Assembly: GCA_015179125.1 (NCBI GenBank)
Contig: WHVA01000021.1
Span: forward strand, 420,777-484,776
DNA from: Gautieria morchelliformis
Taxonomy: Eukaryota; Basidiomycota; Agaricomycetes; Gomphales; Gomphaceae
Direction of reading: 5' to 3'
Length of the DNA: 64,000 nt
The position numbers were made by a program, and so were the translations under genes. Below are positions 11,824-61,907 of this stretch, piece after piece (position 1 is the stretch's first letter; each line of letters starts with the position of its first letter). The notes beneath the pieces were generated by a model. The model made no database searches and was not told the origin of the DNA. It worked only from the letters and a program-made list of their open reading frames with translations.

Positions 11824-11828
11824 TGGAT

Positions 11829-12887
11829 TTTTATGATTAAAATATTAGGTGGTGCCTTTAGCAAACAATTTCTATTGCTTAGCGGTTGGGACCGCTATGT
11901 CTGTCCCTCTCCTGTGTGCTGACTAAACCTCTCGAGACGCGTCCGGCACTGATGGATGGAGGTCACGTGACCATGTCGACGAGAGAATGGTATCAATCTA
12001 AGGAATAACTAAGTCAAAAGGCTTCAATTTTGAGGTAGTCTAGAGTAAACAGTAATAGTGAACTCTCAACGAAGAATTGGAGTAAACTATCGAGATCTAA
12101 GTTCTCTAGCTATCAAACAAGACAACAGCGACTTCAAGGGGTGAAACAGTTGATTCTGGATGATTGATTCATACATTCATAGTAGCTACTTATACTATAC
12201 TAGTGGTAACTACTAGTGTTCGAGATAGTAAGTTGATGGGTCGAAAAACTACTTGTAACTAGAGCGGTGACTAATTATAGTCATAAAGTCATGGGAGTGA
12301 TGGGGATAGTATCAGGGTTGTTTAAGCTTTGGAATAGAGTCTTGTACCTATTATACAAAGCCCCTGTCTACATGGTGTCAAGATAGTAGTCAGCTGGTCG
12401 TGTCATGGAGCTCAATAGAAAATAGAAATTAAATCTCTCCTGCCTAGCATAAATGCTAGGCTTGGTGATGGGGCCACTGTCTCTGTGCCTCTTCTGTGGA
12501 CAGGTGATTGAATACACGTATTAGGAATGACATTCTGAAGTCACTCCACGATGTCCGGTGCTCCTGTGCAGTCTACACTCCTCTGCGGCATTTGGGGCCC
12601 ACACCTCCTCAGTGCCTGTGGCCTGGCACCTGTCGATGTCATGGCCAATGCCATCAGTCGATAGGCGCGCTGTCTCTGATCGACCGCATGTGGTCGACGC
12701 CCGTATCCCTGTATCTTATCTAATCTGTAGATAAGATAGATGTTCGTGATGTCGTGTTTCTGTCATCTGTGTCAATGTCCGTCGTGAGTGTCGTTCCTAT
12801 CTTTTTAGTCGTTTTTCTTCTTTTCTTTTATTAGCTTCTTTGCATACATAGATGACTTAAAATAAAATAGTTGCGTATATCATAACA
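11829..12887 (-). repeat. F element copy 1, TSD TGGAT
   Basis: A 1,059-bp LTR-like unit. Read on the minus strand it starts TGTTATGATA and ends AAAA. It is flanked by TGGAT at 11824-11828 and 12888-12892. It matches 36088-37116, 37133-38168 and 51863-52923. It contains a CATATATGCTGG-like palindrome region and no coding capacity. Confidence 0.88.
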
Positions 12888-12892
12888 TGGAT

Positions 12893-13236: not shown

Positions 13237-13256
13237 ACTACTTCATTAATAGCTTC

Positions 13257-14706
13257 CTAATCATCGCCTGGACCCTCTAATTCTAAGACAATCCCATTTA
13301 ATTCATTCAACTTCACCGACACATTCCTTATCAACTCCTCCAACTTCTCCACCAGCTCCTCCACCCTCTCCTTGGTGAACAGCGTGGATGTTCGAGTACT
13401 TTCGGAGGTATCTGGGAATCAGCCGAAGATAGGCATGAGGAAGATAGAAAGGACATACCAAGAATACCCTTGGAGGAGATCGACGATGGACCCGCAGTCG
13501 ACCCCCTATCCTTCACCTTCACCCTCACCTTGGCCTTCATTCCCCGATCCTTCACCTCAGCCTCCATGGCATCCTTCTCCTCTTTTGCCTTGTAATCTAG
13601 AGAAGGGACCAAAACTCCACATGAGTTCGAAGGATGAAGAGGAGAATTGAGGAGTCAGTTACTTACCCTCTGGCGACACGCAAGCCTGGTGATCACAAAT
13701 ACATTGCCCACACATCTTCCCGGCCTGGCCGCTACATGTGTGGTTGTAGCAGAGGCATTGCCCGCAATTCACTGGCTTCATAACCATCTCGGGCTACATA
13801 TAAGACTATTGTCAGCTTTGTGAATATCTGCGAGGACAAAGGAACACTTACCCCAATGAAGATCTTCCATCCTAGGAGGAAGGCATGCTCAGGGTAATCC
13901 TGCTTCACCACTGATTGCGGGACCTTGTCCACTTCAGCGACTTGCGTGTTCACTCAGCCTGTTGTGACGCAGTGCAGGAGGCTGCTCGACTGCTACAAGT
14001 TTGGGTGAGGGACTCCGAGCCACCTCCAAATGGGGTTGTTGTGAACCTTGCTCTATCCTAGCCTTCTTCGGTGTCGGAGCATCCTCCCCTTCTTCTTCTG
14101 ACGAGAGGAACATTGGTTGCCATTTCGTGCGCACAGGCTGGACTGTGCCTGATGGTTCAGGTGATTCGGGTGACACAGCAATGGGCTCAACCACAGGAGC
14201 GGAATCTTCGCCGAAATTCAAGTTAGATGGGTTAGCAGGCAAAAACTTGTCACGTACCTCTGGGCTCCTTCACAGTGCTCCCCTCGACCTCAGGCTCCTT
14301 CACAGTGCTCCCCCCCACCTTGGGCTCCTTCGATGGATGTCACAATGCTGTGGAACCACGCACCGGGTTCATCTTGATAACGAGGAACACTGGGTTGACT
14401 GTAAAAACCAAACTTCACAGCCAATCCTTCGCTTCCTTCACCTCCTTCACCAGGTCGTTCACATCCAACAGACATTTGAACTCATGGTCCGTGATTTCCT
14501 CCACCTATAATGTAGTCCGAAGCTCAGCCTGCGACAGAGAGGTCAGCGAACACTCTACATGGGAACCATCTTACCTGGATCCCCTCGGCCTCGACTACCC
14601 ATTGCTCCACCTCCTCACATAAATTTGTCCGAAGGTCAGGACGAACCTTCACCGACGTCTGCATTTGCTTGAGGAGTGAGGAGAGGGAAGACCTGTTAGT
14701 TGCCAT
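13257..14706 (-). pseudogene. Gypsy-3 antisense spliced gene, copy II (Zn2Cys6-like, coiled coil)
   Basis: The gene is antisense to the retroelement, with ATG at 14706 (MATNRSSLSSLL) and stop at 13257. Predicted exons include 13793-13667, 13596-13459 and 13411-13257, separated by introns of 47-70 nt with GTAAGT/GTATGT donors and CAG/TAG acceptors. The product has a helical N-terminus, an acidic stretch followed by basic PKKAR (a possible nuclear signal), a Cys-rich module (C-x2-C-x-C-x4-C-x7-C-x2-C-x-C-x4-C), a Lys-rich linker and a C-terminal coiled coil (RVEELVEKLEELI). The coiled-coil exon is in frame here, unlike copy I. A frame change near 13940 and a stop near 14490 suggest decay. Function unknown; a regulatory DNA-binding role is inference. 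Confidence 0.7.
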
Positions 14707-14889: not shown

Positions 14890-14904
14890 CTAGGATGGGG
14901 ATAC
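14890..14904 (+). other. Gypsy-3 polypurine tract (copy II)
   Basis: CTAGGATGGGGATAC immediately precedes the TGTCATGAC start of the LTR at 14905, in the same position as the tract at 42719-42731. Confidence 0.65.
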
Positions 14905-33233: not shown

Positions 33234-34445
33234 TGTCATGACACGTTTATTTCCCATACTCAGATGCTCAGTTCTCCTATTTTCTCACTCCACCTTCGTG
33301 TTCGTTCCGACTGCCCTTGCCATGTTCGGCAACCGATCCTCGCTGTTCGCGCCATTTACCATGGCCACGCCGTCGAAGCACGATCGACGTCCCTGAACTA
33401 ACTTAGCAGTCATTGCTGGGCCTATGACCTCCTCTGCTCAACCCTCTTTCGATGGTGTTCCTATGATCAGACTGTCATGACTTGTATTTCCTGGACCTTG
33501 TTATCCCCATTTCCCCTTTCGCCACTCCACTTCAACCACTTCTCCCCTATGTCATTCCCATTCGCCATTCCTCGCATTTCTCCGAACCGCTATTTGCTGC
33601 TTGTGCATTTCTCCACCAGGCACGCCATCAAAAAACAATCAATACCATTTACCCGTCAAGATGGTTCATCACTAACCCCATCACCTTCTTAATCCAACCC
33701 CTTTGGGTGTTCATATGGCCAAAGTGTGTTCGCAGGACGTCCCTTTCGTAGGTCGTGCGGGATCAACCCAGTAGACGAAGAGTCCATGCAGGGTAGCATG
33801 TATGCGGGTCCCAAGACATGGTTTTGTACATGAATGCCTTCGCCACCTTTACTCTCCGTCGTTTCATGTTCGCACCCTTCCCTCACTCTATTGTATGTTT
33901 ATTCCATCTACTTAGTATCATGACTGCGCACCCCTATCCAACCCTGACTCGCAACGTCCTCTTTCCTATTCGCTGATGCCTTCCAAGCATTCGATATAAG
34001 TAGTTTACATTCGCATGTATATTCTCCAGTTCAATTATCATACGTCGTCCATCTTGTGCAAACTTGACCTCGCTGTGATCATTGCCTTGAGCCTTCTCTT
34101 GGAGATTTCTATCTTCGACCAGCAGAGGACTTAGACATCACTGGTGAGTTCTCATACTTCATCTTCCTTACCTTAGCCTTCAAACTATTCTCTGTGCTAT
34201 TGGCGAAGGGATTGTCGCTACTTAGACAGCCCTTCCGTGACACCTTGCACGTTACATCGTCAAGTACCACAGGCTATTTCGCTACAACTGTAGATAGGGT
34301 GAGCCCCGTTCAGGCAACCCTCTTACCTTGTGAACATTCATTGGTTCACCTATTCGCCGAACAGCATACTTATTCGCACAAGTTATTCGGGCATTCGCTG
34401 TGTTCACTAATACACGATATTAACGCCTAAAAACCAATCTTGACA
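33234..34445 (+). repeat. Gypsy-3 5' LTR (LTR-A, 1,212 bp)
   Basis: It starts TGTCATGACACG, has a second TGTCATGAC start at 33473, and ends CCAATCTTGACA. The two 5' modules (33234-33472 and from 33473) are diverged copies of one another, both leading to a GCACGCCATCAAA-like block. It is 112 bp longer than its partner, mainly because of a deletion in the 3' LTR near 42980. Confidence 0.92.
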
Positions 34446-35165: not shown

Positions 35166-36087
35166 TGTTAAACACAATTCTAAAGTTCAATCAGAGATTT
35201 GACTTTACAAGCACATGCAAGCTTCGAAACTATTTTAACAGAGAACCCAATTAAGAAATTATACTCCGGTGAACAATCAGAATCAGTATTGGTACAGGAA
35301 GTGTAGCAATAGAGATTTAACTGAACACGTGTAGTTCTTATATTGTGCAATACTTTGTGAGGTCAAAGAATGTTTATAGGCGTCCAAGGGTCCAGATACT
35401 TTAAGGGGGAAAGCTACCTAGAGTCTTAGGACCGTGGGTCGAGTGAATTAAAGACAACAATAATCCCCAAGATGTGAAAAGATAGTTCTGCGCTTGAACT
35501 CTTCCTCAGTTCAAGTATGTCACTATTTTTGTGGCTTTTCTGGTTTTCCAACTCAACAAACGTAGGATATTAACTCACTTACCCTGAGTTAGGTTAATAT
35601 CTGCAGTGCGTTGATTGATCAAGAAAGATCAATTACTCAAAAGGCTATTAACCCACTTAAGTCAGAGTTAAGTGACTAATCTATTGCGTGAATTGAATAA
35701 CTAGTAACCAAGTCTATTAGATCACTGCTCAGAGTGGCGTCTAATGGTACAGGATTACTAATCAGTTACTCTTAGTAATGTTGCTGTTCGCAGCACGATT
35801 ATTCAGAGCCTGCTGCAATTAAAATAGAGCACTCTTGTACCAGAGCCAATCAGAGTTGCTGCAATCTTAGACTGTAGCCAAGTAAGTGAGCCAGTACTTC
35901 GGTACAAGGCTGTGTTGAAGTCACACTTCAGTTACTCAAGGTATGAGTGGTTTGGGTGAAAGATGATTGATTGCTTCACTGCTAAAACTGCAGGCTATTT
36001 ATACTGCATCTATCTAGCTTATGTAACTACTGCTAGGAACCTTGTAGAGGCTTCTACTACTGTGAAGAACCTTGTGGAAGCTTAGAG

Positions 36088-37116
36088 TTTTGGATTAAGA
36101 TGTTAATTAGTGCCTTTCAACGAATAGAATCTATTGCTCAGTGACTGGAACCACTGTGTTCGCCCCTCTTCTGTGTGCTGACTAAGCCTTTCGAGGCGCG
36201 TCCAGTACTGATGAATGAGAGTCACGTGACCGTGTCCACAGAAGAACGGTATCAATCCAAGGGATAACCAAATCAAAAGCGTTCGCTTTTAAGGTAGTAT
36301 AGAGTAAACAGTGATAGTAGACCCTCGACGAAGATTTGGAATAAACTATCAAGATCTGAGCTCTGTAGCTATCAAACAAGACTACAGTAATTTCAGGAGG
36401 CAGAATAATCGATTCTGGATGATTTCGTTCATACATTTGTACTAGCTATTTATACTATGTTGATAGTAACTACTAGTGTTCAAGGTATTAGACAGATGGG
36501 TCGAAAAGCTGTTTGTAGCTAAGGGGTGACTAATTTATAGTCATAAAGTCATGGGGTGATGGGGATGGTGTCAGGATTGTCTGGGCTTTGGAATAGAGAT
36601 CTGTACCTAGTATACAAAGCCCCTGTCCACATGATGTTAAGATAGTAATCAGTCAGATGTGTCATGGGGTTCAAATAGAAAAAATGAGGCTGAGTCTACC
36701 CTGCCCAGCATATATGCTGGGCTTGGAGATGGGGCCGCTGATTGAGTATGGATACTGCAGGTGACATTCTCAGGTCGCTCCACAGCACCCTATACTCCTG
36801 CACAGTCTATTGTTCTCTGCGGCGTTTGGTGCCCGCACCCCTCCGTGCCTATGGCCTGGCGCCTGTCGACGTCATGGCCAATGCCATCACTTGATAGGCG
36901 CGCTGTCCCTGTTCGACCGCACGTGGTCGATGCTCGAACTTCTGTACATTACCTGATCTATGGGTAATATAGCATGTCGTAAATTCGTGTGATCGTCGTC
37001 TGCGCCGATGTCTATCATAAATGTCATTTCTGTTTCTTTTTGATCTTTTTTTCTTTTCTTTTCTTTCTTTATTAGTTTAAATGATTTGAAATGGGATAGT
37101 TGCGTTTATCACAACA
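36088..37116 (-). repeat. F element copy 2, TSD TAGAG
   Basis: A 1,029-bp unit, read on the minus strand TGTTGTGATAAACGC ... AAAA. It is flanked by TAGAG at 36083-36087 and 37117-37121. Nearly identical to copy 3, including a CAGCATATATGCTGGGC palindrome. Confidence 0.92.
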
Positions 37117-37132
37117 TAGAGAAGCTTCAGGA

Positions 37133-38168
37133 TTTTGGATTAAGGTGTCAATTAGTGCCTTTCAACGAATAGGATCTATTGCTTAGTGATTGGAACCACT
37201 ATGTTCGCCCCTCTTCTGTGTGCTGACTAAGCCTCTCGAGGCGCATCCAGCACTGATGAATGAGGGTCACGTGACTGTGTCGACAGAAGAACGGTGTCGA
37301 TCCGAAGAACAGTCAGGTCAAAAGCGTTCGCTTTTGAGATAGTATAGAGTAAACAGTGATAGTAGACCCTCGACGAAGATTTGGAATAAACTATCAAGAT
37401 CTGAGCTCTGTAGCTATCAAACAAGACTACAGCAATTTCAGGAGGCAGAATAATCGATTCTGGATAATCTCGTTCATACATGTGTACTAGCTATTTATAC
37501 TATGTTGATAGTAACTACTAGTGTTCAAGATATTGGATGGATGGGTCGAAAAACTACTTGTAACTAAGGGGTGACTAGTTTATAGTCATAAAGTCATGGG
37601 GTGATGGGGATGGTGTCAGGATTGTCTGGGCTTTGGAATAGAGATCTGTACCTAGTATACAAAGCCCCTGTCCACATGATGTTAAGATAGTAATCAGTCA
37701 GATGTGTCATGGGGTTCAAATAGAAAAAATGAGGCTGAGTCTACCCTGCCCAGCATATATGCTGGGCTTGGAGATGGGGCCGCTGATTGAGTATGGATAC
37801 TGCAGGTGACATTCTCAGGTCGCTCCACAGCACCCTATACTCCTGCACAGTCTATTGTTCTCTGCGGCGTTTGGTGCCCGCACCCCTCCGTGCCTATGGC
37901 CTGGCGCCTGTCGACGTCATGGCCAATGCCATCACTCGATAGGCGCGCCGTCCCTGATCGACCGCACGTGGTCGATGCTCGAACTCCTGTACATTACCCG
38001 ATCTATGGGTAATATAGCGTGTCGTAAAATTCGTGTGATCGTCGTCTGCGTCGACGTCTATTATAAATGTCATTTTTGTTTCTTTTTAATCTTTTTCTTT
38101 TCTTTTCTTTATTAGCTTCTTTTTATATATAGATGATTAAAAATAGGATAGTTGCGTTTATCACAACA
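37133..38168 (-). repeat. F element copy 3, TSD CAGGA
   Basis: A 1,036-bp unit inserted 11 bp beyond the right duplication of copy 2 in the same orientation. It is flanked by CAGGA at 37128-37132 and 38169-38173. The distinct duplications show two separate insertions rather than a tandem duplication. Confidence 0.92.
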
Positions 38169-38299
38169 CAGGAAAGGCTTGGAAACTATTGGAAGGCTGT
38201 GGAAGGTTCTATTGCTATATTGGGTTAAAGTCACAGCTCTGTGACAGTAAAGCTAAGAGTATGTAAGAAACTCCCACACTCATGTGATTATCATGTGAC

Positions 38300-38667: not shown

Positions 38668-40170
38668 ACTATCCCTAACACATACTTCTTTGCACTCTTC
38701 GCAGGCCCTTTGCAGTCTTCACCGTTCGGTACATAGTGACCATACTCGAGTCAGTTCTCAACAGACTCCCCCTCGCGAGGTACCTTTGGCGGGCCAGGGA
38801 CACAATGTTGACCTTGCACCTGAACCACATCTTGGCTATCCCGTTAGTAGCGTGCCTTATTATGATCCGAATGCTTTGCCATTCAGAGGTGCCCTGCCTC
38901 CGTTCGCAGGGCAACCTCACCCGTTTGTGGGACAACCTCCCCTGTACCAACCTCCAGCCCAGATTCCTGCCCCACCTGGCGGGCCTGCACCTCTTCCATT
39001 CGCGGGACAACCTCTCCCCTTCGCAGGACAACCTCTCCCACAGCAGCCTCTGGCACAGATTCCTGCCACACCTGGCGGGCCTGTACCGCCTCCTCCACAG
39101 CCTCTCGGGCCACCATTTCCCCATTTCGGAGTGCCTCTGATTGGGCCTCCCAGGCCACCCGGGCCCCCGGGCCTCCTGGCCCACCTCCACCCCCTGGTGG
39201 AGGGCCTTGGCCGCAACCAGGGTTCCCACGGAACCCATACTATCCTTTTCCTTTCGCCTACCCTCAGGCCGCCCTGATGGTGACTCCGATGCTGCAAAGC
39301 CTGACAAATTCACAGGGAAAGAACCTTGCCTTCTCCGAACATTCATCGCTAGTTGTATTATGGTCTTCGACAACAAACCCCGAAAGTTCCAGCAGGAGCG
39401 ACAGCAAGTCTCCTACGCAGCATCCTACCTCAGCAACATTGCCTTGATCTGGTGGCAACCTTTTCTCATTCAGGTCCCAGAGCCTCCCATTCGGAGCAAC
39501 TGGCTTATCTTTGTCGACGAACTTAATCGTCTTTTTGGTCAGGCCGACATCATCCAGGTGTCCAAGCGAGCTATTCGCAGGCTCAAGATGCTCGACACCC
39601 ATCCTGTCAATCGCCACATGACCACATTTGCTGAGTTGTCCTCTTACGTCGAGTGGAACGATGCTGCCCTTTACGACACTTTCTACAACAGCCTCGTCCC
39701 GAAAGCCTCGACGATCTCAAACGTCAGGCTCTTCGCATTGACAATCACTACTGGGAGCGCCAAGGCGAAAAGCAGCTTACAACCTCTATTCGTCCCCCTT
39801 CCTCTTCCGAACCCTCTTCTACACCATGTGCTAACGCTCGACCCAGACCCTCGACTGCAGCCAAGCCCGAAAAACAGAAAGATCTTTCTGGTATCCTCGA
39901 TGCCACCGGACATCTGACTGAAGCTGAGAAAGAGCAACAAAAAACCAAAGGCCTTGCCCTTATTGCAGCGAACCCCCCACACATCATGCAAAGGGGTGTC
40001 GCTTTCAGGAGCCTGCCTCAACCACTGGCAGGGCTATCTTCACCCTTGAAGGCGACCCTCAGGTTGCGATTCTTGAAGAGGTTCCCGAAGATAGCGAAAG
40101 CTCTCCTGCAGAAGATTAGCTTGCGATCCCTCTGTGGTGTTAAGAATGAATCGTTTCATTCCTTTGAACA
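38668..40170 (+). pseudogene. Gypsy-3 gag, capsid and nucleocapsid part
   Basis: The segment opens with Pro/Gly-rich repeats (PFAGQP, PLPFAGQ, about 38880-39150). The capsid region follows (39290-39700; PDKFTGKEPCLLRTFI, YLSNIALIWWQPFL, WLIFVDELNRLFGQ), typical of the Retrotrans_gag domain of Tf-like Gypsy elements. It continues in the next frame with DDLKRQALRIDNHYWER (about 39690) and DATGHLTEAEKEQQK (about 39900), the usual lead-in to the zinc knuckle, whose Cys are only partly readable near 39965. Three frames are needed in total. Gag would form the virus-like particle. Confidence 0.85.
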
Positions 40171-40229
40171 ATGACCCTACTCACTCTGTACAATCCATGT
40201 ACCTGTTCGCTTTGACTATCCTGTACCCC

Positions 40230-40400
40230 CTTCATCTCTCCCCATCTATTTACACCTTCCCAGTCTCTAATTCCTTCCTACCCTCATCGACTCTGGTGCC
40301 ACTCTGAATTTCATTAATAACCCGTTCCTCTCTCATCCTAGTCCTAAAATCCATCGCCCCAACTCCCGAACAATTTCTCCTTTTCCTTCTCCTTGTTAGC
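40230..40400 (+). pseudogene. Gypsy-3 protease fragment
   Basis: The frame PTLIDSGATLNFINNPFLSH near 40275-40335 carries the aspartic protease DSG motif and hydrophobic flanks of retropepsins. It is cut soon after, and RT is not found downstream. Confidence 0.7.
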
Positions 40401-41117
40401 ACACTAGCTACTACTTGTCTCATTCGCCGAACACGTAGATATTCGTCTCATTCAGCAGCTCCACTTCAACAGATATTTTCAACACTTGGAAAAAAAGTAA
40501 CACTCTTCGGTTACATTCACCACACATTCCGAATCCTCGTCCCCGCTATCCTTGGGTTACGTCCCGAACATGGCGATTGGACCACTCTATCCCACCTCGG
40601 TCCTTCCACCAGGTGTCTTTTCTTTTCTTCGCCCTTTCCTATCCCAAATCTTTCTGTTTTCGTGCAGAGGTTCGCCATGGATGGCAAACTATTCACTACC
40701 CCTGTACAGCCTATCAAGCATCACTCTGCCGAGTCCTCCATATCGCTGTTCGCTATTCGTCCCCGCTATCCTTGGGCCACGCCCCAAACACGGCGATTGG
40801 ACCATTCTATTACCCTTCGACGTCTGACATGGATAGCGACCCATTCTGTCCTCCAACAGCGTCCCGAACCACCCCCACACATTTTACCTGTCGGGGCGAC
40901 GTGTACCATAAAGGGGGGGATGAGTGCTTAGGCATTATACAAACCCTCACAACCCCTACATTCGGAAAACTTGGTGATCACTTCAGCGCTCTTCGCACAA
41001 CTTCGCGAACACCTCCTCCAGTTGGATTCACTTATAGCCACTTTCACCTACTTTCACGTAGTGCTTCAAGAGAAACAATGCTTCTATGTTCACACAAAAA
41101 ATATCACAAACTCTACT
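40401..41117 (+). repeat. Gypsy-3 remnant with an internal direct repeat
   Basis: The segment GTCCCCGCTATCCTTGGG through GGCGATTGGACCA (from 40542) recurs from 40761, about 220 bp later, at roughly 90% identity. No protein family is recognisable, so this may be the collapsed remainder of pol. Confidence 0.6.
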
Positions 41118-42551
41118 CTATTTCGTTAACTTCCTGATCATCGCCTGGACCCCCTCTAGTTCTAACACCTCTCCGCTTAAATCGTTCAACTTCCAGGACA
41201 CACTCCTCATCAGCTCCTCCAACCTCTCCACCAGCTCCTCCATTCTCTCCTCGCCGGCCAGCGTAGACGTTCGGGTGCCTTCAGGGGTATCTGGGAATCA
41301 GCCGAGGATACTCGGGAGGGGGATTCAAGAAGCTTACCAAGGACACCCTTCGACGAAATTGAGGTCGGACCTGTTGTCAATCCCTTATCCTTCACTTTCC
41401 CCTTACTCTTTCCCTTCGACCCTCGCTCCTTCACCTCTGGCTCTCCACCATCCTTCTTGTCCTTCCCCACATACTCTAGAGGAGGGACAAGGACCCCACA
41501 TGAGTTCAAACAGTGTAGGAGGAATGGAAAAGGTGGAAACTTACCCTCTTCCGCGACACAGCCCTGGCGATCGCAAATGCATCGCCCACACATCTTTCCC
41601 GCCTCGCCGCTGCAGGTGTGACCATAGCGAAGGCATCGCCCACACTTTGCAGGTCTCTGCAGTACCTCGTGCTATGGAGAAGCACACAGTCAGCGGGCGA
41701 ATTACTTCGACAGCACGATGCTGCTTACCCCATTATACATCAGCCAGCCAAGAAAATATGCATGCTCGGGGTAACCATGCTTCACTACCGATTGTGGAAC
41801 CTTCTCCGATTCAGTAACCAGCGCATTCGCCCGACCCTTGCGATGGTGGGTAGGAGTCGGCTCGACTGTGACAATCTATGGCGAAAGACTCTGAGCGCGT
41901 TCCTTCCGAGCCTTCTTCGGAGTCCGGGTATTTTTGCCTTCGTCTTCGGACAACAGGAACATGGGTCGCCGTTTCGTGCACACGGGCTGGACTGTGGCCG
42001 ATTGTCCAGGTGATCCAGCGATAGGCTCAGCTGCGCGAGCGGGATCTTTGAGAGAACTTCGAGTCAGGATGGCCAGCGAACAAACAAGTGTCACGTACTT
42101 TCAGACTCCCGCATACTGTCCCCCTCGACTCCGGGCTCCTTCGCAGCACCCCCCACTACCTTGGGTTCCTTCGACGGACCTTGCGATGCTATCAGCTCTG
42201 ACGCCGCGTTCATCCCAGCATCAAGGAACTCTGGGCTAACTAAGAAACCCACACTCCCGGGCCACTCTTTCGCTTCCTTCACCTCCCTCACCAGGTCGTC
42301 CACTTCCGACGGACATTCGAAGTTGGGATCCGCGATTGCTTTGACACGCAATGTGGTACGAAGCTCGGCCTGTGATGGGGTGGTCAGCGAAATCCTTGAT
42401 AAGGGAGCTCTCTTACCTGGAGTTCTTCAACCTCGGCAACCCACTGCTCCACCTCTTCACGCAAGGCTCCCCGAAGGTCAGGAAGAACCTTCAGCTTGAC
42501 CCGCGTTCGCTCGATGAGCACAGAGAGAGAGGAGGACTCGTTAGGGGCCAT
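41118..42551 (-). pseudogene. Gypsy-3 antisense spliced gene, copy I (Zn2Cys6-like, coiled coil)
   Basis: The gene reads against the retroelement. Predicted exons are 42551-42417, 42369-42099, 42056-41729, 41671-41545, 41475-41338 and 41290-41118, with introns of 42-69 nt that have GT...AG ends. Protein order: helical Glu/Leu-rich N-terminus (MAPNESSSLSVLIERTR), acidic then basic segment (SEDEG...PKKARKER, possible nuclear signal), PQSVVKHGYPEHAYFLGW, a Cys module with spacing C-x2-C-x6-C-x7-C-x2-C-x6-C (that of fungal Zn(II)2Cys6 clusters), a Lys-rich stretch and a C-terminal coiled coil (ERMEELVERLEELMR). A stop near 41877 and one-base insertions in the last exon break this copy. A DNA-binding or self-regulatory role is inference; Zn2Cys6-type basic contacts are sparse. 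Confidence 0.7.
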
Positions 42552-42718
42552 AAGGAATCGAATAGTGTAATGAACCCATTGCCTCACGTCGCAATGCCTT
42601 TTAAAGCCCAGGGCTGAGCCGTGCACGGACCAAGCGGCGAGAGATCGTATTGGGGGCACTATTACGTCCTCAGACTCGTCCCCCACCCCAGAGCACTACG
42701 TCGTTGGACTCCGAAGCT

Positions 42719-42731
42719 ATAAGGGGGGTAC
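42719..42731 (+). other. Gypsy-3 polypurine tract
   Basis: ATAAGGGGGGTAC ends exactly at the TGTCATGAC start of the 3' LTR. Confidence 0.75.
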
Positions 42732-43831
42732 TGTCATGACGCGTTTATTTCCCATACTCAGATGCTCAGTTCTCCTATTTTCTCACTCCACCTTCGTGTT
42801 CGTTCCGACCGCCCTTTCCGTGTTCGGCAACCGACCCTCGCTGTTCACGCCATTTACCATGGCCACGCCGTCGAAGCACGATCGACATCCCTGAACTAAC
42901 TTAGCAGTCATTGCTGGGCCTATGACCTCCTCTGCTCAACCCTCTTTCGATGGTGTTCCTATGATCGGACTGTCATGACTTGTCCATCAAAACACGATCG
43001 ACATCCCTACTCGGAATGATGGCTCGTCAGTAGCTCCATCAGCTTCTCGATCCAACCCCCTTTGGTGTTCATATGAGCAGGGTGCGTTCACAGGATGTCT
43101 TACCCGTAGGTCATGTGGGATCAACCCAGTAAATGAAGAACCCGTGCAGGGGGTGTATATGCGGGTGCCAAGACATGGTTTTGTACATGAATGCCTTCAC
43201 CACCTTTACTCTCCGTCATTTCATGTTCGCACCCTTCCCTCACTCTATTGTATGTTTATTCCATCTACTTAGTATCATGACTGCGCACCCCTATCCAACC
43301 CTGACTCGCGACGGCCTCTTTCCTATTCGCTGATGCCTTACGAGCATTCGATATAAGTAGTTTACATTCGCATGTATATTCTCCAGTTCAATTATCATAC
43401 TTCGTCCATCTTGTGCAAACTTGACCTCGCTGTGATCATTGCCTTGAGCCTTCTCTTGGAGATTTCTATCTTCGACCAGCAGAGGACTTAGGCATCACTG
43501 GTGAGTTCTCATACTTCATCTTCCTTACCTTAGCCTTCGAACTATTCTCTGTGCTGTTGGCGAAGGGCTCCGAAGGAGCACCTTCGCCGGCGAAGGGATT
43601 GTCGCTACTTAGACAGCCCTTCCGTGACACCTTGCACGTTATACGTCAAGTGCCATGGGCTCTTTCGCTACGACTGTAGATAGGGAAAGCTCCGTTCGGG
43701 AAACCCTCTTATCTTGTGAACATTTGTTGGTTCACCTATTCGCCGAATGGCATACTTATTCGCACAAGTTATCCAGGCATTTGCTGTGTTCACTAATACA
43801 CGATATTAACGCCTGAAAACCAATCTTGACA
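42732..43831 (+). repeat. Gypsy-3 3' LTR (LTR-A, 1,100 bp)
   Basis: It starts TGTCATGACGCG, repeats TGTCATGAC at 42971, and ends CCAATCTTGACA. The first 240 bp differ from the 5' LTR at only a handful of bases. A deletion of about 130 bp follows the second start. Confidence 0.92.
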
Positions 43832-45258: not shown

Positions 45259-45288
<30 letters not shown>

Positions 45289-45457: not shown

Positions 45458-48400
45458 CTATCCTCTGCGCCTGTCCTCTTTTCTTTTGCCCGCTCCTGCC
45501 TTTCCTTTCGACGTCGTTACATCTCTGTATTGCTCCTCCAATCGCTTGGTGTCGTGTATGTACCTGAACAAATGTTCCATCGCCTTATGCCCCCCCAATA
45601 ACGTCTTGACCGATTTGGCTCCTCTCTTGAGTTTTCTCTCTAGTCTCCCTCTCTGCTCTCTGTATGCTGGGCAGCGGAATAGGAAATGATGTACTGTCTC
45701 TGGAGCCCTCCTGCACGCTGGGCAGAGGGGTGACGCTGTTTTCCCGATTTTGTGTAAGTGTTTGTTCAGCGCGATATGTCCCGTTCTCAGTTGTACCAGC
45801 AGGCTCGCTTGTTTGCGCGGCATATTTCTTGTGATCTTCGAGAATGCTGCTGACGGCATAGTGGGGTCAATCTCATGCGCATGAAGCGCTCTGGGGACTT
45901 AGCAAATTTTTCCTTCGCTTCCCGGTTCAGCTTTGCATTGTGCCTCTGGATCTCTGCCGCTCTGCTCACTGGTAGCTTCCCTCGACACTCGGTCGGTATG
46001 TACCGCACACTGCTATTCCGTCCTTCCGCTGCTCTTTTCGCCTCTTTGTCAGCTCTCTCATTTCCTTCTACCCCTTCGTGCCCTGGCACCCATCTCACAA
46101 TTACTTCGGCTCCTGCTTGTTTCTCCACCACTCCCTGTATCTGCCTGTGTAGAGCATTTACCATGTATTGACCTGGTATGGCTCGTTCTTGTCTAGTAGC
46201 TTGGATGGCGGCCTGGCTGTCCATTGCTATTGTGTAGCTCCCACCCCTCTCGTCGTTCAGCATCCTTGCTCCCATCGCCGCCGCTGCCAGCTCCGCTTCG
46301 ACCACTGTATGCTTGCTTTCTGGGCCCAGGTGTAGCCTCGCCATCTTCTTCTCTCTCCCGTTCCTAAATAGCACCGCCGCTGCCCCCACTCCCCCATTTA
46401 TGCTCGACCCGTCGGTATACACCGTGGTCCCGGCCTCTTGCTCGCTCATCTCACTCTTCGCTTGTTCCTTGTTGAGGGGGATCCTCATGCTGAAGGCTGG
46501 CGTCCACTTTGGACCGAACACCACTGTATGTATTTTCTCCATCGCATCTGGCTGTAGACTGAAGGTGTGCATTATCTCGTGTAGGGGGGATCTGTGCCGC
46601 TTTACGTATCTTTTCGCTGCTTTCCTCACTTTTCCCACGATCGGGTGGCTCTGGGGGAGGCATGCAAGTCGAACTGCCACTCTGTGCACTATTTTGAATA
46701 CCATCAGCGGGAAAGGGAGGAGGTTCGCGTGTGCATCGAGAATGTCGTTGGCCGTTGTCATGAGGGCTCCTGTAATGTCTATCGCCGCCCGCCTCTGAAT
46801 TCTTGCGAGTTTATTAATAAACCCCTTTGTTCCCTTGCTTGTGGCCGTTTCTGGAACTAGGAAGACGTCAGCTGCGTACAACATTCTCGGGACTGCTACC
46901 GTCATGTAGTACGTCCTCATGTACTTAGCTGTTACTCCCTTGGACGGTTTCGCGAGTCTTCTGTACTGGTTTATGTACGCCTCTCCTTTCTTCAGCGCGT
47001 AGTTGACGTGCTCCCGGAATCTCAGTTCTTGGTCCATCATTACCCCCAGGAACTTGTGCGCTGTTGTGGGTTTTATGATGTGCTGCCCTATTCTTATCTC
47101 CGGTCTCGCTACTGGTCTGGTTTTGCCCGGCTTGGCAGGGTCTTTTTCTCTGCGTCTGGTGAGTCCCATCAAACCAAACTTTTCTACCGCGAACTGGCAG
47201 TAGTGTTTTCGGCCCAGTCGTTCACCCCATCTGGTCTAACCATTATATCCAATAGCTTACTGAACGCCTTCTCGAGGTCCGGACCTTCGGCTATTATAGT
47301 GGTGTCGTCCACGAATCCTATGCTCCCTTCTCCGTTGTTGTGCCGCACCACGTCTATCAGGTCACCGTTGTAAAACTGGTAAGCGATTGCCAATAGCGGA
47401 CAACCTTGGTCCATTCCTCGCCCAATGGGTCTGGTCGCGGAAAAGTAATCATCAAAGCTTACCGTGGTAAGCCTGTTTTGGACCTTCCTGCGTATCCAAT
47501 CGGTGTATTCACGTGGTACTCCCCTTCTTCGCATGTTATGAGCCAGCCGGTCTAGCACTATGCTTGGAAACGCTCCCTTGATGTCCAGATATAGCACCCG
47601 AGTACGTTTCCTCTCCTCCACGCGTCCTTCGCCTCTGACACCACGTAGTGTACGGCGTCGGTTGTCATTCTTCTGGGTCTGCATCCAAAGTGGTTGTCGG
47701 GTAACAATTGGTATTTTTCCGTCATCTTTACCAGATCCTCCACCACGCACGCGGACAGCACTTTTCCCATCGTGTCCAGTAGTGCGATCGGCCGGTAGGC
47801 ACCTGGAGCCGTGTAGTCTGCCTTACCTGGCTTACGGAGGACCTTTGTTATTGAATCCCTCCACTCTGCCGGGTATACTTTGAGGTCGAACGTTGCGCGG
47901 AAGAGAGGTCCTATGTACGGTAGAAGGGTGTCAATGCACTGTTTTATGAGTTCATTAGGGATACCATTTTCTCCCGGCGCCTTGAACCGGTTGAGTTTGT
48001 CCACGGCTCTTCTGATCTGCTCGTCTGAGATTGGCTGATACTCGAACTCCGGCGGGGGATACTCGTAGTCCTCCAGTATTTGTTCAACCACTTCTCCTGG
48101 CTCTGGGAAAAAGGTGTCGAAGAGTAGGTCTGACTTTTGTTCGTTTGTCTCTGCTATCTGCTTCGCGCCGTTTGCCTTTTTTGTCACTAGCGTCGGTACC
48201 CGCGTCTGACCCCCGTCTCCCACGTCCGCCGAAGCATATCCGTGGGCTGCCCATATCGTATTTTGGTCTATACCGTCGAGGAAGTCTTTCCAATGCTCTC
48301 TTTTTGACCTCTCTATGTCTTCCGCGTAGCGATTCCGAGAGGCTCTGTATTCTTCGTGTGCTGCGTGTGTCAGGTCGTCTCTTAGCGCATATGCTTTCCT

Positions 48401-49431
48401 TGCGAGCCGCCTGGTCTCTGTTCTGGTGCACGACAGCTGTAAGGACCACCATCGCTTCATGTATACCGACGGCCTGTTTTTGGCACTAGTTCTTCTGTGG
48501 TATCCAAGATGGCCGTTGTCATCTCTCGCAAGTTTTGATGGAACTGTTGAGCAGTGAGTGGTATGGGTTCTTTGCTTCTGTCTTTTAACTCAGCTTCGAG
48601 CATCTTTCTGTATTCCTTCCAGTCCACCTGTCTGTAATTGGGCTTCGGCGGCTGGATGCTTGCCTTGATGGATACGTCGATCATGGTGTCTACGGGCAGG
48701 TGGTCGCTTTTTGGTGGTAGATCTTCTGGCACTGTGCTGCAGCTAATCATGTTTTCAATGACTGAAGGCGATGCAAAGACATTATCTGTTCGCGTGTAAT
48801 TCCCTGTGGCCATCAATCTTAGCGTTGGTACATCCTTAGGTAGCGCCATGTGTAGTCCGTGATCTGCTATTGCGTCCAATAGTATTTGCGCCTCATCTAA
48901 ATTTGCCCTTGTGAACAAGTGTGCGTTGCGCAGCTCGTCCCAGACCGGGTGATGCCTATTGAAATCCCCGAGCCACACCATGCCCTCTATCTCCCTTTCT
49001 TGCATGGTCCCTTCCGCCGCTCTGTGTTGCATATATTTCTGTATGGCTCTTATACTGTTAGAATGGGCGCAGTCCACGTATGAATTAACTATCAGGACGT
49101 CACCCATGTTGGTTTTTATCTTTGCTGCCGTGACATCTGGCGATCCCATATCAATTGCTCCCCACGCGCTCGTCGCCATCTTTTTGTTTATCAGCAGCAT
49201 CGATCTCGTTCGCTTCTCTTTATCGTTGAAGTGTGTTCTGGGGTACACTGAGTACCAGTTTGGTGTTGCTCTGGCGTTGCCTAGGAAGTCAATATATGGC
49301 TCTTGGATTGCGAGGACGTCATATTTTTCGGGTGAGCACTTAGCTAGCATTTCTACCGTTGCCGTTAGCGATTTGTTGACGTTCTGTTGTCTGATTCTCA
49401 ATTTTCGCATTTGTTGGTTTTCTTCGTTCAT
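45458..49431 (-). pseudogene. LINE ORF2: endonuclease, reverse transcriptase, RNase H
   Basis: ORF2 starts at ATG 49431, overlapping the ORF1 stop as ATGA. The APE-type endonuclease (49431-48460) shows AIQEPY, WLGDFNRHHPVWD and SDHLPV. RT (about 48100-47200) shows YRPIALLDTMGKVLS, LYLDIKGAFPS and the catalytic GFVDDTTI. RNase H (about 46430-45990) has YTDGSS, AELAAAAMG, AMDSQAA and GNERADKEA, giving the D-E-D-D set. A C-terminal Cys/His knuckle follows (CPACRRAPETVHHFLFRC, about 45730). Frame changes near 48465, 47600, 47190 and 45860 inactivate it. RNase H plus APE endonuclease and a CCHC ORF1 fit the I/Tad group known in fungi. Confidence 0.93.
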
Positions 49432-51197
49432 CCTTGGCACGTATTGTTATCGCTTCCGTTTTGCTGTACTGTTTGTGTCCTCTCGCGGCTGACCCCTATT
49501 CCGTAGTCGTCCAGTCTGCTCTGTCGCCCTTCGCCCTGTTCTCTGTCTTGCCACCCTTGGTCCATGTGCCCGATTCTTGGATTCGCTCCTCTTCCTCTCC
49601 CTCGCACGTTTCCTCTGCTTTCAATCCTTCCTCTATTCCTTGGGTTATCTGGTTCCACTTGGTGCCTCTCCCTGCTTCTGCTGTCCGCCAGTCTCGCCAT
49701 CCTTCTTTCCATTTCCGCCGTTTTCCATCTTCTGTCCTCCTGTTCCCTGAGTTTCCTTATGAGATCCCCCACGTCGTCTGTTTCCTCCGCCTCTTGGTGC
49801 TGTTCCCATGTCCACGGGTCGTCATTGGGAAAGAATTTGTACGTATGTTCTGGATCGCTCTTTTCTGCCGCTGCGCATTCCGATTTGAATACCGGGCATG
49901 TCCTATCCCATGACGTGTGGCCTTTTGCGTCGCAATTCGTGCATTTGTATTTGCTTGGGTCGTCCTCCTGGCATTCGGCTGTTCTGTGCTCTTCTCCGCA
50001 TGTCCCGCACGTGTCTCTGCCGCTGCACTCTGCTGCCATGTGTCGAGCGTTATAGCGCTGACATTTTAGGCATCTTCGCGGTTCTTTTTTCATTCTCCTG
50101 GCCCAGGTTCGCTTTCCCGCTATTATTATCCCGTCTCTTATGCTTTGATTTGCCGCTTCTGTAGATGTGAACTTGGTGATAATGTGTGCTGATCTCTGTC
50201 CTGCCGTCCTCCTGTGGACCGGCTTTATCCACCGGGTTGAGAGCAGGGATCCGTCGGGGAGTTTAGAGTCCCTCTCGATCTTTCTCATCTCCGCCATGGC
50301 GTCGGGTGAGTGGTTCAGCGGCACGTACTCCACTATCACTGACAGCGTTCTTTCTTTTATCGTGGCCGTCCCGCTGAACTTGCTCAAGAACGTCCTCTTG
50401 TTCGTCTGCACCCATTTTGCCGCCTCCTCTGTTTCCATGTCCAGCACTACTCCTCCATTCGCCAGCTTCTTGGCTCCCACAAAGCTTATGTCTATTCTTT
50501 CTGGGTCCGGCTCGAGGTTACTTATTGCTTCGTTAGCTTTCGCTACCAGCTCCTGCTCCGTTAGCTTGCCTAACTCGTCCTGTTCTCGTGACATGTCTCC
50601 GTCGATCAGTATTTGTCTCGCTTTCATTTTCGCTTTTGCCAGGTTGTTTAGGTGTGACAAGGGGACGTTACCTTTCAATGCGGCCACGTATGTTGCCCCT
50701 CTCGTGTTGTCTTCCCCTTGCCGTTCCCTCTGTCCTCCCATGCTGTTCAAATGTTCTATGACATTTCTGGCTCCTTCTGTTGCTTCTTCTGCCACCTCAG
50801 CCGCCTCTTTGGCCCTGTCAGCTGCTGCTTCCAACTTGGCCAGGGTCGTCTTGATGTGCTTTTTGATGTGTCGCGAGACTGCTGCTCCCGCTGCTCTCGT
50901 GGCATCCTCCATCATTAGAATGGCCACCGCCCGAACTCCTTCCTGTAGTGTTTTGCCGCTAACGTTGTGTGCAAGTGACAATAACACGTAACTTAGCTGT
51001 TCTGTCGACAACGGATCATCCTTCGTGTAATACCCATGTTTGTCTAGGAACTGCCTCGCTTGCTCTCTGGTTCTGACCGACGTGTTTGGCTCCAACAACA
51101 AATCAGATCTAGTTTTGTTGCTGGCTTGTTGTGTGGCGCCTGCCCTTGTGCGAGCTTGTGACGTGGCAGGCGCCTGGGGTTCGACGCTTTGTGGCAT
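49428..51197 (-). CDS. LINE ORF1 (gag-like RNA-binding protein)
   Basis: An intact 589-residue ORF, starting MPQSVEPQAPATSQART. The N-terminal part is Ala/Thr-rich, then an Ala/Glu coiled-coil-like stretch (residues about 120-165) leads into a folded middle region (about 215-350). Three zinc knuckles follow: CLKCQRYNARHMAAEC, CGTCGEEHRTAEC and CTNCDAKGHTSWDRTC. The C-terminus is Arg/Gly/Glu-rich (RGNVRGRGRG). It would package the LINE RNA. The stop TGA overlaps the ORF2 start, suggesting coupled re-initiation. This is the only long retroelement ORF in the window without a visible break. Confidence 0.93.
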   Translation of the reverse strand: MPQSVEPQAPATSQARTRAGATQQASNKTRSDLLLEPNTSVRTREQARQFLDKHGYYTKDDPLSTEQLSYVLLSLAHNVSGKTLQEGVRAVAILMMEDATRAAGAAVSRHIKKHIKTTLAKLEAAADRAKEAAEVAEEATEGARNVIEHLNSMGGQRERQGEDNTRGATYVAALKGNVPLSHLNNLAKAKMKARQILIDGDMSREQDELGKLTEQELVAKANEAISNLEPDPERIDISFVGAKKLANGGVVLDMETEEAAKWVQTNKRTFLSKFSGTATIKERTLSVIVEYVPLNHSPDAMAEMRKIERDSKLPDGSLLSTRWIKPVHRRTAGQRSAHIITKFTSTEAANQSIRDGIIIAGKRTWARRMKKEPRRCLKCQRYNARHMAAECSGRDTCGTCGEEHRTAECQEDDPSKYKCTNCDAKGHTSWDRTCPVFKSECAAAEKSDPEHTYKFFPNDDPWTWEQHQEAEETDDVGDLIRKLREQEDRRWKTAEMERRMARLADSRSRERHQVEPDNPRNRGRIESRGNVRGRGRGANPRIGHMDQGWQDREQGEGRQSRLDDYGIGVSRERTQTVQQNGSDNNTCQG

Positions 51198-51353
51198 CGT
51201 TTTGACAGCTTCTTTTCAGGGAAGCTCGTTTTCGCCGCTAGCTGTATTCAGCGATGCACTGGTGTGCGGTTTAGCAAGCATGTGTGTGTGAAGTGCGATT
51301 TTGGGTATTTTGGTGGTGGTGGTAAGCGTGAGAAAAGTCCTCCCTCCTCGTCG

Positions 51354-51857: not shown

Positions 51858-51862
51858 ACCTC

Positions 51863-52923
51863 TGTTATGATAGATGCAATTATTTTATTCCAAGTCATCT
51901 ATGTACAAAGAAGCTAATAAAAGCAAAGAAAGAAAAAACGACTAAAAAGGAATAGGAATGACACTTACGACGGACGTCGACACAGACGACAGATACACAA
52001 CATCACAAATAGCTATCTTATCTATATATTAGATAAGATACAGGAATATGGGTGTCGACAACGTGCGGCTGATCAGAGACAGTGCACCTATCAACTGATG
52101 GCATTGGCCATGACATCGACAGGCGGCAGGCCACAGGCACCGAGGAGGTGCGGGCACCAAACGCCGCAGAGGAATGCAGACTGCGCAGGAGCACCGGACA
52201 TTGTGGAGTGACTTCAGAATGTCATCCATAATACGTGTACTCAATCAGCTGCCCCACAGAAGAGGCACAGAGACAGCAGCCCCATCACCAAGCCTAGCAT
52301 TTATGCTAGGCAGGACAGATTTATTTTCTATTTTCTATTGAACTCCATGACACGACCAGCTGACTACTATCTTGACACCATGTAGACAGGGGCTTTGTAT
52401 AATAGGTACAAGACTCTATTCCAAAGCTTAAAAAACCCTGCTACTATCCCCATCTCTCCCATGACTTTATGACTATAATTAGTCACCCCTCTAGTTACAA
52501 GTAGTTTTTCGACCCATCAACTCACTATCTCGAACACTAATAGTTACCACTAGTATAGTATAAGTAGCTACTACGAATGTATGAATCAATCATCCAGAAT
52601 CCACTGTTTCACCCCTTGAAGTCACTGTAGTCTTGTTTGATAGCTACAGAACTTAGATCTCGATAGTTCACTCCAATTCTTCGTTGAGAGTTCACTATTA
52701 CTGTTTACTCTAGACTACCTCAAAAGCGAAGCCTTTTGACTTAGTTATTTCTTAGATAGACACCATTTTCTGGTCGACATGGTCACATGACTTCCATCCA
52801 TCAGTGCCGGACACGCCTCAAGGGGCTTAGTCAGCACACAGGGGAGGGACGAACATAGCGGTCCCAACTGCTAAGCAATAGTATTCGTTTGCTAAAGGCA
52901 TCACTTAATATTTTTATCTAAAA
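51863..52923 (+). repeat. F element copy 4, TSD ACCTC (GAGGT)
   Basis: A 1,061-bp unit in the opposite orientation to copies 1-3, starting TGTTATGATAG and ending TATCTAAAA. It is flanked by ACCTC at 51858-51862 and 52924-52928. Inserted in Gypsy-1 integrase; the frame MVEV rejoins once it is removed. Confidence 0.92.
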
Positions 52924-52928
52924 ACCTC

Positions 52929-53617
52929 AACCATTGGGCATTTCAACGCCCAATCCTTCTGGTCGTCCCTGACGACCATGCGCAGTATCTGTCCGATCGA
53001 GCGGTTTGTGCACTCAGTCACTCCATCCGTTTGGGGATGGAAGGCAGTCGACATGAGGAGCTTGGTCCCCATGAGTCGCTATAGTTCACACCAGAAGATC
53101 GATGTGAACTTCGAGTCTCTATCCGAGACGATGGAGTCAGGAACTCCATGGAGGTGAATGATTTCTTTCAGAAACAGCCAGGCTACTCCCTTGGCTGACA
53201 CGCTCGTTGTTGTTGGGACGAGGTGGATGTGTGACGTTAGTCGGTCGATGACTACCATCAGGTAGTCACGGTCATTAGATTTGGGCAGGGGCCCCATGAA
53301 GTCGATGCCAATCGACTGCCACGGCCTATCTGGAATGGGTAGGCTGTGTAGTAAGCCTTTGGGCCATTGTGGCCCGGTTTTCGTCATCTGGCACTTCGCG
53401 CACGATGTGCAGAATGACTCGATGTCTGGGCTCATGCCTGGCCAACAGTATGACCTTCGAACATAGTTCCATGTCTTCAGATGGCCGTAGTGACCGACTA
53501 TCTGGTGTGCTCGATCAATGATTATTTCGATCAGCCTCCTTCCTCCCTGAGGAACAGATTGGGGGACGGCGATGACATCTCTTTTGAGCTGATTCTTTGT
53601 CCAGATCAGCCCATTCC
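52929..53617 (-). pseudogene. Gypsy-1 integrase zinc finger and DDE core
   Basis: The minus strand reads GLIWTKNQLKRDVIAVPQ, then the H2C2 finger (H...H...CTSCAKCQ, about 53480-53390), IGIDFMGPLPKS (first D), DSIVSDRDSKFTS (second D) and, after a stop near 53079, STAFHPQTDGVTECTNRS (Glu region), ending WALKCPMVE at the F4 duplication. This supplies the integrase core missing from the plus-strand copy. A stop and a frame change separate the core from its last Glu. Confidence 0.92.
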
Positions 53618-60129: not shown

Positions 60130-61534
60130 AAGTCCTTTATTGAGAAGATCAGCTAGCATGTGTTCCGTTGGTAGGTACACAAGCTTAATTTCTCCATCTT
60201 CGACTATATCTCAAATGAAATATAATCTAATGTCAAAATGCTTGGTTCTCGTGTGCTGTTGAGTGCCATAGACGATGGCAATGGCTGATTGATTGTCTGA
60301 ATAAAGTTTGATGGGATAATTCAGCGGTTGGAATACTTCAGAAATAAAGTGGTGTATCCATAAGGCTTCTTTGCTCGCATGAGTCAGGGCAACGAATTCG
60401 GCTTCAGTTGATGATAGGGCTACTATGGATTGTTTTTGACAACTCCATGATACTGTCCCTCCATCAATCTGAAAAATATAAGCCGAGTATGAGTGCCTGT
60501 GCTCTTGTGAAGCCCAATCTGCATCTGAATACCCAATGAGGCCATCTTGATTTTTCCCAAGTGTCAATTTGTAGTCCATCGTTCCTTTTAGATATTTAAA
60601 GACACGTTTGACTGCATTCCAATGAGTTGGACCTGGGTTTTCGAGGAATTGAGAAAGTAATGACACTGCGAATGCAATGTCTGGTCGAGTGGCTACAGCT
60701 GCCCACATCAATGATCCTATCTTGTCTGTATGGAACTCTTGACATCTTCTGTTTGACTTCGTCTGTGGAAGGGCATTGGTCCCTGGATAATTTAACAGCT
60801 AGGTCAAGAGGCGTGGAAAATGTTTTGGCATCATCCAGATTGAATTTCTTGATGATTTTCTGGATGTACGCACTTTGGGATATTGCAATCGATTTTTTTT
60901 TTCCAATCTCTTTCAATTTTGAGGTTCAAAAGCCAGTGGATCTCGCCTAGGTCTTTCATACTAAAACCTGGGCAAAGTCGTGCTTCACCCCATCAAGGAC
61001 TGGTTGATTTTCAGCTGTGATGGTAAGGTCGTCTACAGCTGTTGCAATGATTGCATATCCCTTCGGTCCACGTCTGCAAAATACAGCTCCATCCGAAGCT
61101 GATTTAGTGAATCCTAACTTGAGAAATTCACCACTCAGACATTTATACCATTCCCTTCCAGACTGTTTGAGGCCGTAAAGTGCTTTCTTCAACAGGAGGA
61201 CATCATCTTTGTCTCTGGTCTCATATCCATATGGCTGTCTCATGTAAATAGGTTCTGGCAGTGTAGCATTCAAATCCGCACTGTCCACATCCATTTGGTG
61301 AATAGGCCAATTGTTCCTGGCAGCAATGGCACATATAATCCGTAAGGAAGTCATCCGAGCAACGGGTGCATAGGTTTCATTGTAGTCGACTCCAAAACTT
61401 TGTGTAAAGCCTTGGGCGACCATCCTCGATCTAGGTGTAATGGGTTCACCTTCTGGATTGTGTTTCCAGAGGAATACCCATCTATTTCCGACAATATTTG
61501 CTCCAGGAGGTGGTTTAACACACTTCCCATACAC
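60130..61534 (-). pseudogene. Copia-1 RT and RNase H
   Basis: RT (61534-60956) has NRWVFLWKHNPEGEP, MVAQGFTQSFGVDYNETYAP, QMDVDSADLNATLPEPIYM and the catalytic AVDDLTI. The RNase H segment (60916-60130) has MMWAAVATRPDIAFAVSLL, GYSDADWASQE, LSSTEAEFVALTHASKEA and LYSDNQSAI, providing D, E and D. It ends HTRTKHFDIRLYFI, a stop, then MLADLLNKGLPS. A gap with a stop and frame change lies near 60950, and another near 60710. The usual polymerase YVDD reads AVDD here. Confidence 0.93.
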
Positions 61535-61907
61535 CTTTGTGGAGTAGCACCTTGTACTCTTTATCCATCAATGCTTTCCACATAGGATCATTTAAGGCTT
61601 CATCTGCATTGCTAGGCTCAGTCTGATTCAAATCCGGCAGCACCTTATCTTTGTTTTGATCGAAGGTCGAAAGTGTACTGATGGCAAGGTTATAATCACT
61701 GATGCCGTCAGTTTCAGAGGATAAATCTTGTTCAAATAATTTGTCTTGATGGTCCTCAATGTCCTCGTAAGCTAGTGTAGTGTTCGCTTTCTCCTTATTG
61801 GAGCAGCTTCTTTAGGTCTGACATCAACAGTCTGACTGGGTTGCAGCTCTTTCAGACGTTCCTCTGGTTCATTATCATCAATTTCCTCGATCTTTGCCTC
61901 CTGCTGA
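61535..61907 (-). pseudogene. Copia-1 connection between integrase and RT
   Basis: An Asp/Glu/Ser-rich linker of the kind that lies between the integrase tail and RT in Ty1/copia pol. It is broken by stops, with only short open pieces such as EALNDPMWKALMDKEYKVL near 61560-61610. Confidence 0.6.

Follow-up and report, generated by a model that had tools for sequence, protein, structure and literature searches.

The stretch of Gautieria morchelliformis DNA analysed here (64,000 nucleotides; the window) carries on its minus strand, at 41118–42551, a gene of six exons and five introns that lies antisense to the gag gene of an LTR retrotransposon, between a collapsed pol and the 3′ LTR (Table 1). 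The spliced model was defined from the sequence; the arrangement, first proposed in a sequence-only reading of the window, is confirmed and has copies at 40 loci. Comparison of these copies shows that the predicted gene is coding, that its five introns are conserved and that purifying selection acted on it during the multiplication of the lineage. That selection acted apparently mostly after the lineage had lost its pol. The reading we favour, at a little better than an even chance, is that of an antisense accessory protein gene of a Ty3/Gypsy lineage, the product being a nuclear zinc-cluster protein that tunes the element's expression or its escape from silencing.

Table 1. Features of the element, the antisense gene and its second copy (window positions).
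Feature	Position	Strand	Remarks
Second, diverged antisense gene copy	13238..14706	-	69% nucleotide identity; adjoins LTR sequence 14903–15832
5′ LTR	33234..34445	+	same LTR family
gag open frame	39141..39914	+	Retrotrans_gag PF03732, 32 bits, cut-off 24.1
Collapsed pol remnant	40141..41117	+	about 1 kb, with repeats; no domain recognised by Pfam
Exon 6	41118..41290	-	predicted C-terminal helix; stop 41120–41118
Intron 5	41291..41337	-	47 nt
Exon 5	41338..41475	-	basic KGKSKGK segment
Intron 4	41476..41544	-	69 nt
Exon 4	41545..41671	-	C-x2-C-x6-C-x7-C-x2-C-x6-C
Intron 3	41672..41728	-	57 nt
Exon 3	41729..42045	-	encodes PKKARKER; premature TAG in window copy, 41878–41876
Intron 2	42046..42098	-	53 nt
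Exon 2	42099..42369	-	
Intron 1	42370..42416	-	47 nt
Exon 1	42417..42551	-	ATG 42551–42549; donor GT kept in 36/37 copies
TATA-like TTTAAAAGG	42597..42605	-	about 50 nt before ATG; candidate promoter
Polypurine tract AAGGGGGG	42721..42728	+	precedes 3′ LTR; read from sequence
3′ LTR	42732..43831	+	TGTCATGAC...TTGACA

The exons sum to 1161 nt, equal to 386 codons and a stop, and all five introns of the window copy have the GT..AG ends claimed for them. This copy is itself broken by an in-frame TAG at codon 192 (41878–41876), which corrects the earlier description; among the copies displayed, the stop is shared by one other (L027). A database protein of 386 residues (P0002) is identical to the spliced model of locus L013, an independent annotation that agrees in one case. 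Apart from P0002, none of the 52 database proteins compared is identical to any spliced copy, and P0003 reads intron 1 as coding; the public models therefore lend splicing no uniform support.

A DNA search of the genome of G. morchelliformis (Gomphales; 122 Mb in 1113 contigs) returned at least 42 matches, which were kept as 40 loci, the window's own included; the antisense frame that was to be sought in related elements is thus repeated across this genome. Among copies with letters at the respective sites, the donor GT is found in 36/37, 38/38, 38/38, 35/37 and 36/37 for introns 1 to 5, the two non-GT donors of intron 4 being GC, and the acceptor AG in 37/37, 37/38, 38/38, 37/37 and 37/37. 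All six cysteines are retained in 36 of the 37 readable copies. Pairwise differences per site over 33 copies are 0.107, 0.094 and 0.207 at codon positions 1, 2 and 3, while the introns, at 0.181, are near the third codon positions and the GT/AG letters differ at 0.012. A dN/dS near 1 was among the conditions that the sequence-only reading had named for abandoning the gene. The ratio is 0.28 in the predicted frame vs 0.95 and 1.07 in the shifted frames (33 near-complete copies, 527 pairs), so coding constraint is present.

On a tree of these copies, 319 synonymous changes, 244 non-synonymous changes and 4 stops fall on internal branches, vs 485, 696 and 29 on terminal branches; the shifted frames collect 32–35 stops on internal and 91–94 on terminal branches. 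Per site, the branch counts give about 0.24 for internal vs 0.45 for terminal branches, and the gene was therefore maintained during the element's multiplication, with more decay after insertion. A premature stop is absent from just 14 of 34 copies (in window-anchored codons), and seven of the 40 copies (L003, L011, L013, L022, L026, L028 and L034) read undamaged from ATG to stop by inspection, L022 among them with a GC donor at intron 4. No enrichment of in-frame indels was found in the exons, where 11 of 44 distinct types are multiples of three (1 of 18 in the introns). The claim that introns antisense to the genomic RNA survive reverse transcription agrees with their persistence here: at intron 3, the junction tested, the genome contains 45 matches to the unspliced form and 0 to the spliced one (with up to three mismatches each). 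Therefore, no copy seems to derive from RNA spliced at intron 3, as expected where the sense RNA alone is copied.

For the anatomy of the element, 14 stretches of 10 kb were fetched around copies. At least the end of gag is present in 13 of them (L045 has neither gag nor LTR), and in nine (L041–L044, L046, L047, L049, L053 and L054) an LTR of the family precedes gag in the same orientation. The distance from the end of gag to the antisense gene is 876–1236 bp in 14 loci, namely 13 of the 14 stretches and the window, and these intervals gave no match to pol at E ≤ 1e-4; faint matches (E 0.11–0.21) to one short pol piece occur in four of 13 intervals. In L042, L043, L046, L048, L050 and L054, pol matches lie upstream of the gag-to-gene interval, as judged by reading, and therefore belong elsewhere. 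Across the 14 loci examined, the collapse of pol is family-wide and not private to the window copy, and gag and the antisense gene remain. Non-autonomous LTR elements that keep gag are a recognised kind, and the pol-less window type fits it in having kept LTRs and gag and lost pol, with copies that form one tree group and apparently multiplied after the loss. The dN/dS of gag (second part; 14 sequences, 77 pairs) is 0.25–0.38 by divergence bin, the 0.38 bin being one pair, with 0.93–1.54 in shifted frames; that of the antisense gene in the same loci is 0.22–0.37 by divergence bin. Purifying selection on the antisense gene is about as strict as on the capsid gene gag.

Identity between the two LTRs of the window (33234–34445 and 42732–43831) is 97% over 253 aligned bases and 87.5% over 856, and no matching target-site duplication flanks this pair; the two may therefore not stem from a single undisturbed insertion. 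A 63-base repeat is found in the pol remnant (40537–40599 and 40757–40819, 84% alike). Several other copies have two or more matches to the repeat region, which recalls the tandem repeats of Retand.

At three diverged loci (L056–L058) the antisense gene is adjoined, on the opposite strand, by sequence that matches most of a comparison pol. The comparison pol (L060) has protease, reverse transcriptase, RNase H, integrase zinc-binding and chromo domains above their cut-offs, and an integrase core 0.1 bit under. L057 also carries gag and LTR sequence of the window's family. The gag-to-gene distance is 4.5 kb in L057 and 5.1 kb in L058, both pol-bearing, vs the 876–1236 bp of pol-less loci. In these two loci the pol beside the gene has decayed into short open frames, and no intact element with both pol and the antisense gene was seen among the three. 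They share five introns at the same places with L059 and with the second window copy, annotated as JB92DRAFT_3106766 (P0034); donors are GT in 24/25 cases and acceptors AG in 24/25. A tree of 36 sequences separates 32 window-type copies from L056–L058 and the second window copy with a support of 0.999 (an unrooted split, midpoint-rooted). Within the 32, the deepest split has pol-less copies on either side (L049, which is the stretch around copy L020, vs the others). Loss of pol, checked in 14 loci, therefore seems to have happened once and long ago, and most of the measured selection would be later. Elsewhere, the genome holds at least 150 reverse-transcriptase matches, many in open frames of 1249–1257 codons, which are possible helpers for pol-less elements.

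The predicted protein, of about 380 residues, comprises N-terminal helices, a variable linker, PKKARKER, the conserved block HGYPEHAYxLGW, the Cys cluster, KGKSKGK and a C-terminal helix, in that order. The mean identity of 20-residue blocks is highest in the Cys cluster (0.92–0.95) and the C-terminal part (0.92–0.96). The neighbours originally described for the cluster are borne out, with the NLS-like PKKARKER upstream and a predicted C-terminal helix downstream. Zn(II)2Cys6 proteins follow the spacing rule C-x2-C-x6-C-x5-12-C-x2-C-x6-8-C, and the spacing of the six cysteines in Gal4-type factors (PF00172) is of the same class as in the Gautieria protein. The sequence-only reading had equated the cluster with this type: the spacing (x2, x6, x7, x2, x6) does match, but membership of the family is supported only in part, Zn_clus being below its cut-off. 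In the PF00172 profile search that had been suggested, Zn_clus reached 12.5 bits vs a cut-off of 21 in the first member scanned. It was listed for four of nine members at E ≤ 10 (best 0.11) and gave no match among 26 full proteins at E ≤ 0.1.

Profile comparison with Gal4/Lac9 gave a weak probability of 15.6 over 15 columns. The full-length AlphaFold model is poor (mean pLDDT 47.8, about 50 in the Cys region), and a PDB search with it returned 13 matches, all at E > 4 and mostly helical bundles. Basic residues between Cys2 and Cys3 of Gal4 contact DNA; where Gal4 has RLKKLK, the Gautieria protein has LRYGHT and lacks the Lys pair. A conserved CGG/CCG pair was not found in 18 LTR pieces, where there is one CGG and no CCG, which counts against a Gal4-like target, other sites being possible. 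Also unlike Gal4, the protein matched no other fungal transcription-factor domain in the Pfam scans, which gave no match to TRP28 (PF04195) or bZIP either. Neither the whole protein nor its Cys region had a match above cut-off or otherwise convincing in searches of Pfam, NCBIfam and solved-structure sequences. Because of the sub-cut-off Zn_clus score, the weak Gal4/Lac9 match, the poor model and the lack of the basic pair, the predicted protein is here termed zinc-cluster-like and not a Zn(II)2Cys6 protein. No relatives outside Gautieria are found among 52, 36 and 59 protein-database matches; two of these searches scored the best 8000 and the best 7998 candidates by word sharing, and a short-word search may miss distant ones.

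The start codon and the 3′ LTR are separated by 180 bases, which include the TATA-like box. Its sequence is TTTAAAAGG in 27 of 34 aligned copies, TTAAAAAGG in five and TATAAAAGG in one, the remaining copy being gapped with TTAAAAGG; AAAAGG is invariant in 34/34, the diverged second window copy included. This conserved box suggests that the antisense gene has a promoter of its own. RNA polymerase II would start near it and transcribe back towards pol, and the host would splice the five introns out of the antisense transcript. The protein of ~380 residues would then enter the nucleus via PKKARKER, pair through helices at its N- and C-terminal ends and, with its six-cysteine, putatively zinc-binding cluster, bind DNA or RNA of the element, and this binding would tune how strongly the element is expressed or how it escapes silencing. 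Since the genomic RNA is the sense strand, where the introns are no splice signals, they would be retained. Analogy and the make-up of the protein are what suggest the regulator role. More tentatively, the gene could encode a multi-exon nuclear zinc-cluster regulator, a fungal counterpart of HBZ, that together with Gag forms what a pol-less derivative must carry, reverse transcriptase and integrase being borrowed.

An antisense accessory protein could instead act in the replication cycle, as a chaperone, in packaging or as a nuclear-import partner of Gag, and not in transcription. Pol-less elements hold gag and the antisense gene under similar constraint, and the basic KGKSKGK together with the Cys cluster would suit RNA binding too; the NLS-like segment and the zinc-cluster spacing, however, resemble nuclear DNA-binding proteins, and we regard a role in replication as less likely than the favoured reading. 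It is also conceivable that the antisense RNA alone matters, as a non-coding regulator or a source of siRNA, and that the open frame is incidental. The position and the splice sites are equally suited to an RNA, which may act beside the protein, and spliced antisense non-coding RNAs from transposons are described in the fungus Blumeria hordei (PMC10648671). As the sole function, non-coding RNA is contradicted by the codon-position-specific constraint, with a dN/dS of 0.28 in the predicted frame only, and by the rarity of stops on internal branches, and we give it very little credence.

Recent capture of a host gene, carried as a passenger, would account for introns, which are usual in host genes. 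Against this, the gene occupies the same position with the same introns in the window's family and in the diverged pol-bearing loci, no host homologue is recognised in the protein-database searches, and its constraint resembles that of gag; recent capture as a passenger is accordingly highly improbable. Finally, the constraint might come from a sense-strand protein of which the antisense signal is a shadow. A sense frame of 251 codons is open in the window copy (41062–41814), and ratios of 0.39 over exon columns and 0.57 over the whole region were obtained for one sense frame each. Yet the four longest sense frames are stop-free in just 9/37, 4/38, 0/38 and 1/37 copies, and the splice signals suit the antisense strand alone. 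Sense-strand coding, hardly credible on these figures, is contradicted by stops in most copies and by the antisense frame having the lowest dN/dS (0.28).

An antisense accessory protein gene would place the Gautieria element beside several known systems. Antisense ORFs between pol and the 3′ LTR are described in the plant Ty3/Gypsy elements Grande of maize (gene23), RIRE2 of rice and Retand of Silene (PMC11963269, PMC7264820). The defining features of an aORF-3R recur in Gautieria: the gene is coding antisense to gag-pol, lies past the pol remnant or decayed pol and before the 3′ LTR, and is kept in copies with a dN/dS like that of gag (0.22–0.37 vs 0.25–0.38). As presented in the available sections of these papers, the plant ORFs share with it position, orientation, presence in most copies and conservation like that of other element proteins; they are likewise suspected to be nuclear or DNA-binding regulators, and some Retand elements are non-autonomous. 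The TATA-like box parallels the own promoter reported for Grande gene23 (PMC7264820). Among the differences, Retand elements carry TRP28 (PF04195), for which Pfam scans of the Gautieria protein gave no match, introns go unmentioned in the available sections of PMC11963269 and PMC7264820, and the hosts are plants and not a fungus. A fungal LTR retrotransposon with an antisense gene is the Boty-like element of Botrytis cinerea, with a chromodomain-bearing gag-pol and the additional antisense gene brtn (Zhao et al. 2011, as cited in PMC7264820, PMC8365987 and PMC4227169); the likeness is drawn from the description in the citing papers alone.

The antisense proteins of HTLV (HBZ of HTLV-1 and APH of HTLV-2/3/4) are nuclear regulators, and APH-3 and APH-4 suppress transcription from the 5′ LTR, according to the accessible part of PMC10186651. 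They resemble the Gautieria case in that the antisense gene lies at the 3′ end; for HBZ/APH the transcript is known to be spliced, vs splice sites alone here. HBZ is of the bZIP type and its expression starts from the 3′ LTR, whereas the Gautieria gene has five introns, a TATA-like box that separates it from the 3′ LTR, and a product without bZIP in Pfam scans. Among the titles and abstract openings listed by searches of open-licence literature (at most 20 per search), none pointed to a basidiomycete LTR element with a coding antisense gene that is spliced. What stands out here is the combination of five conserved introns, a cysteine cluster, a basidiomycete host and survival with gag after the loss of pol. 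Although accessory genes on the antisense strand of LTR elements were first described years ago, their function is not known (PMC7264820, in the text available). The strand logic of the present gene is unusually clear, as the RNA that is copied does not come from the coding strand and five introns can hence persist, and dozens of copies in one genome allow selection to be measured. Loss of pol, together with continued constraint on gag and the antisense gene, suggests that the antisense protein, unlike the enzymes, is not simply borrowable, or is needed for the copy's own success. The family thus offers a fungal system, beyond retroviruses and plants, for asking whether antisense proteins regulate their element.

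Several other repeats are found in the window. Open frames on the minus strand at 45790–51215 encode RNase H and endonuclease domains as well as a reverse transcriptase domain that scores below cut-off; with a T-run near 45261, they are probably a broken non-LTR (LINE-type) retrotransposon. Two tandem repeats of ~1.05 kb at 36077–38171, 93% alike, are possibly solo LTRs of another family, and are about 75–76% alike to stretches near 11820–12891 and 51859–52930. A PIF1-like helicase fragment (7822–8922, minus strand; 206 bits) possibly comes from a Helitron, and a Copia-type reverse transcriptase (RVT_2, 169 bits) lies at 60959–61567 on the minus strand.
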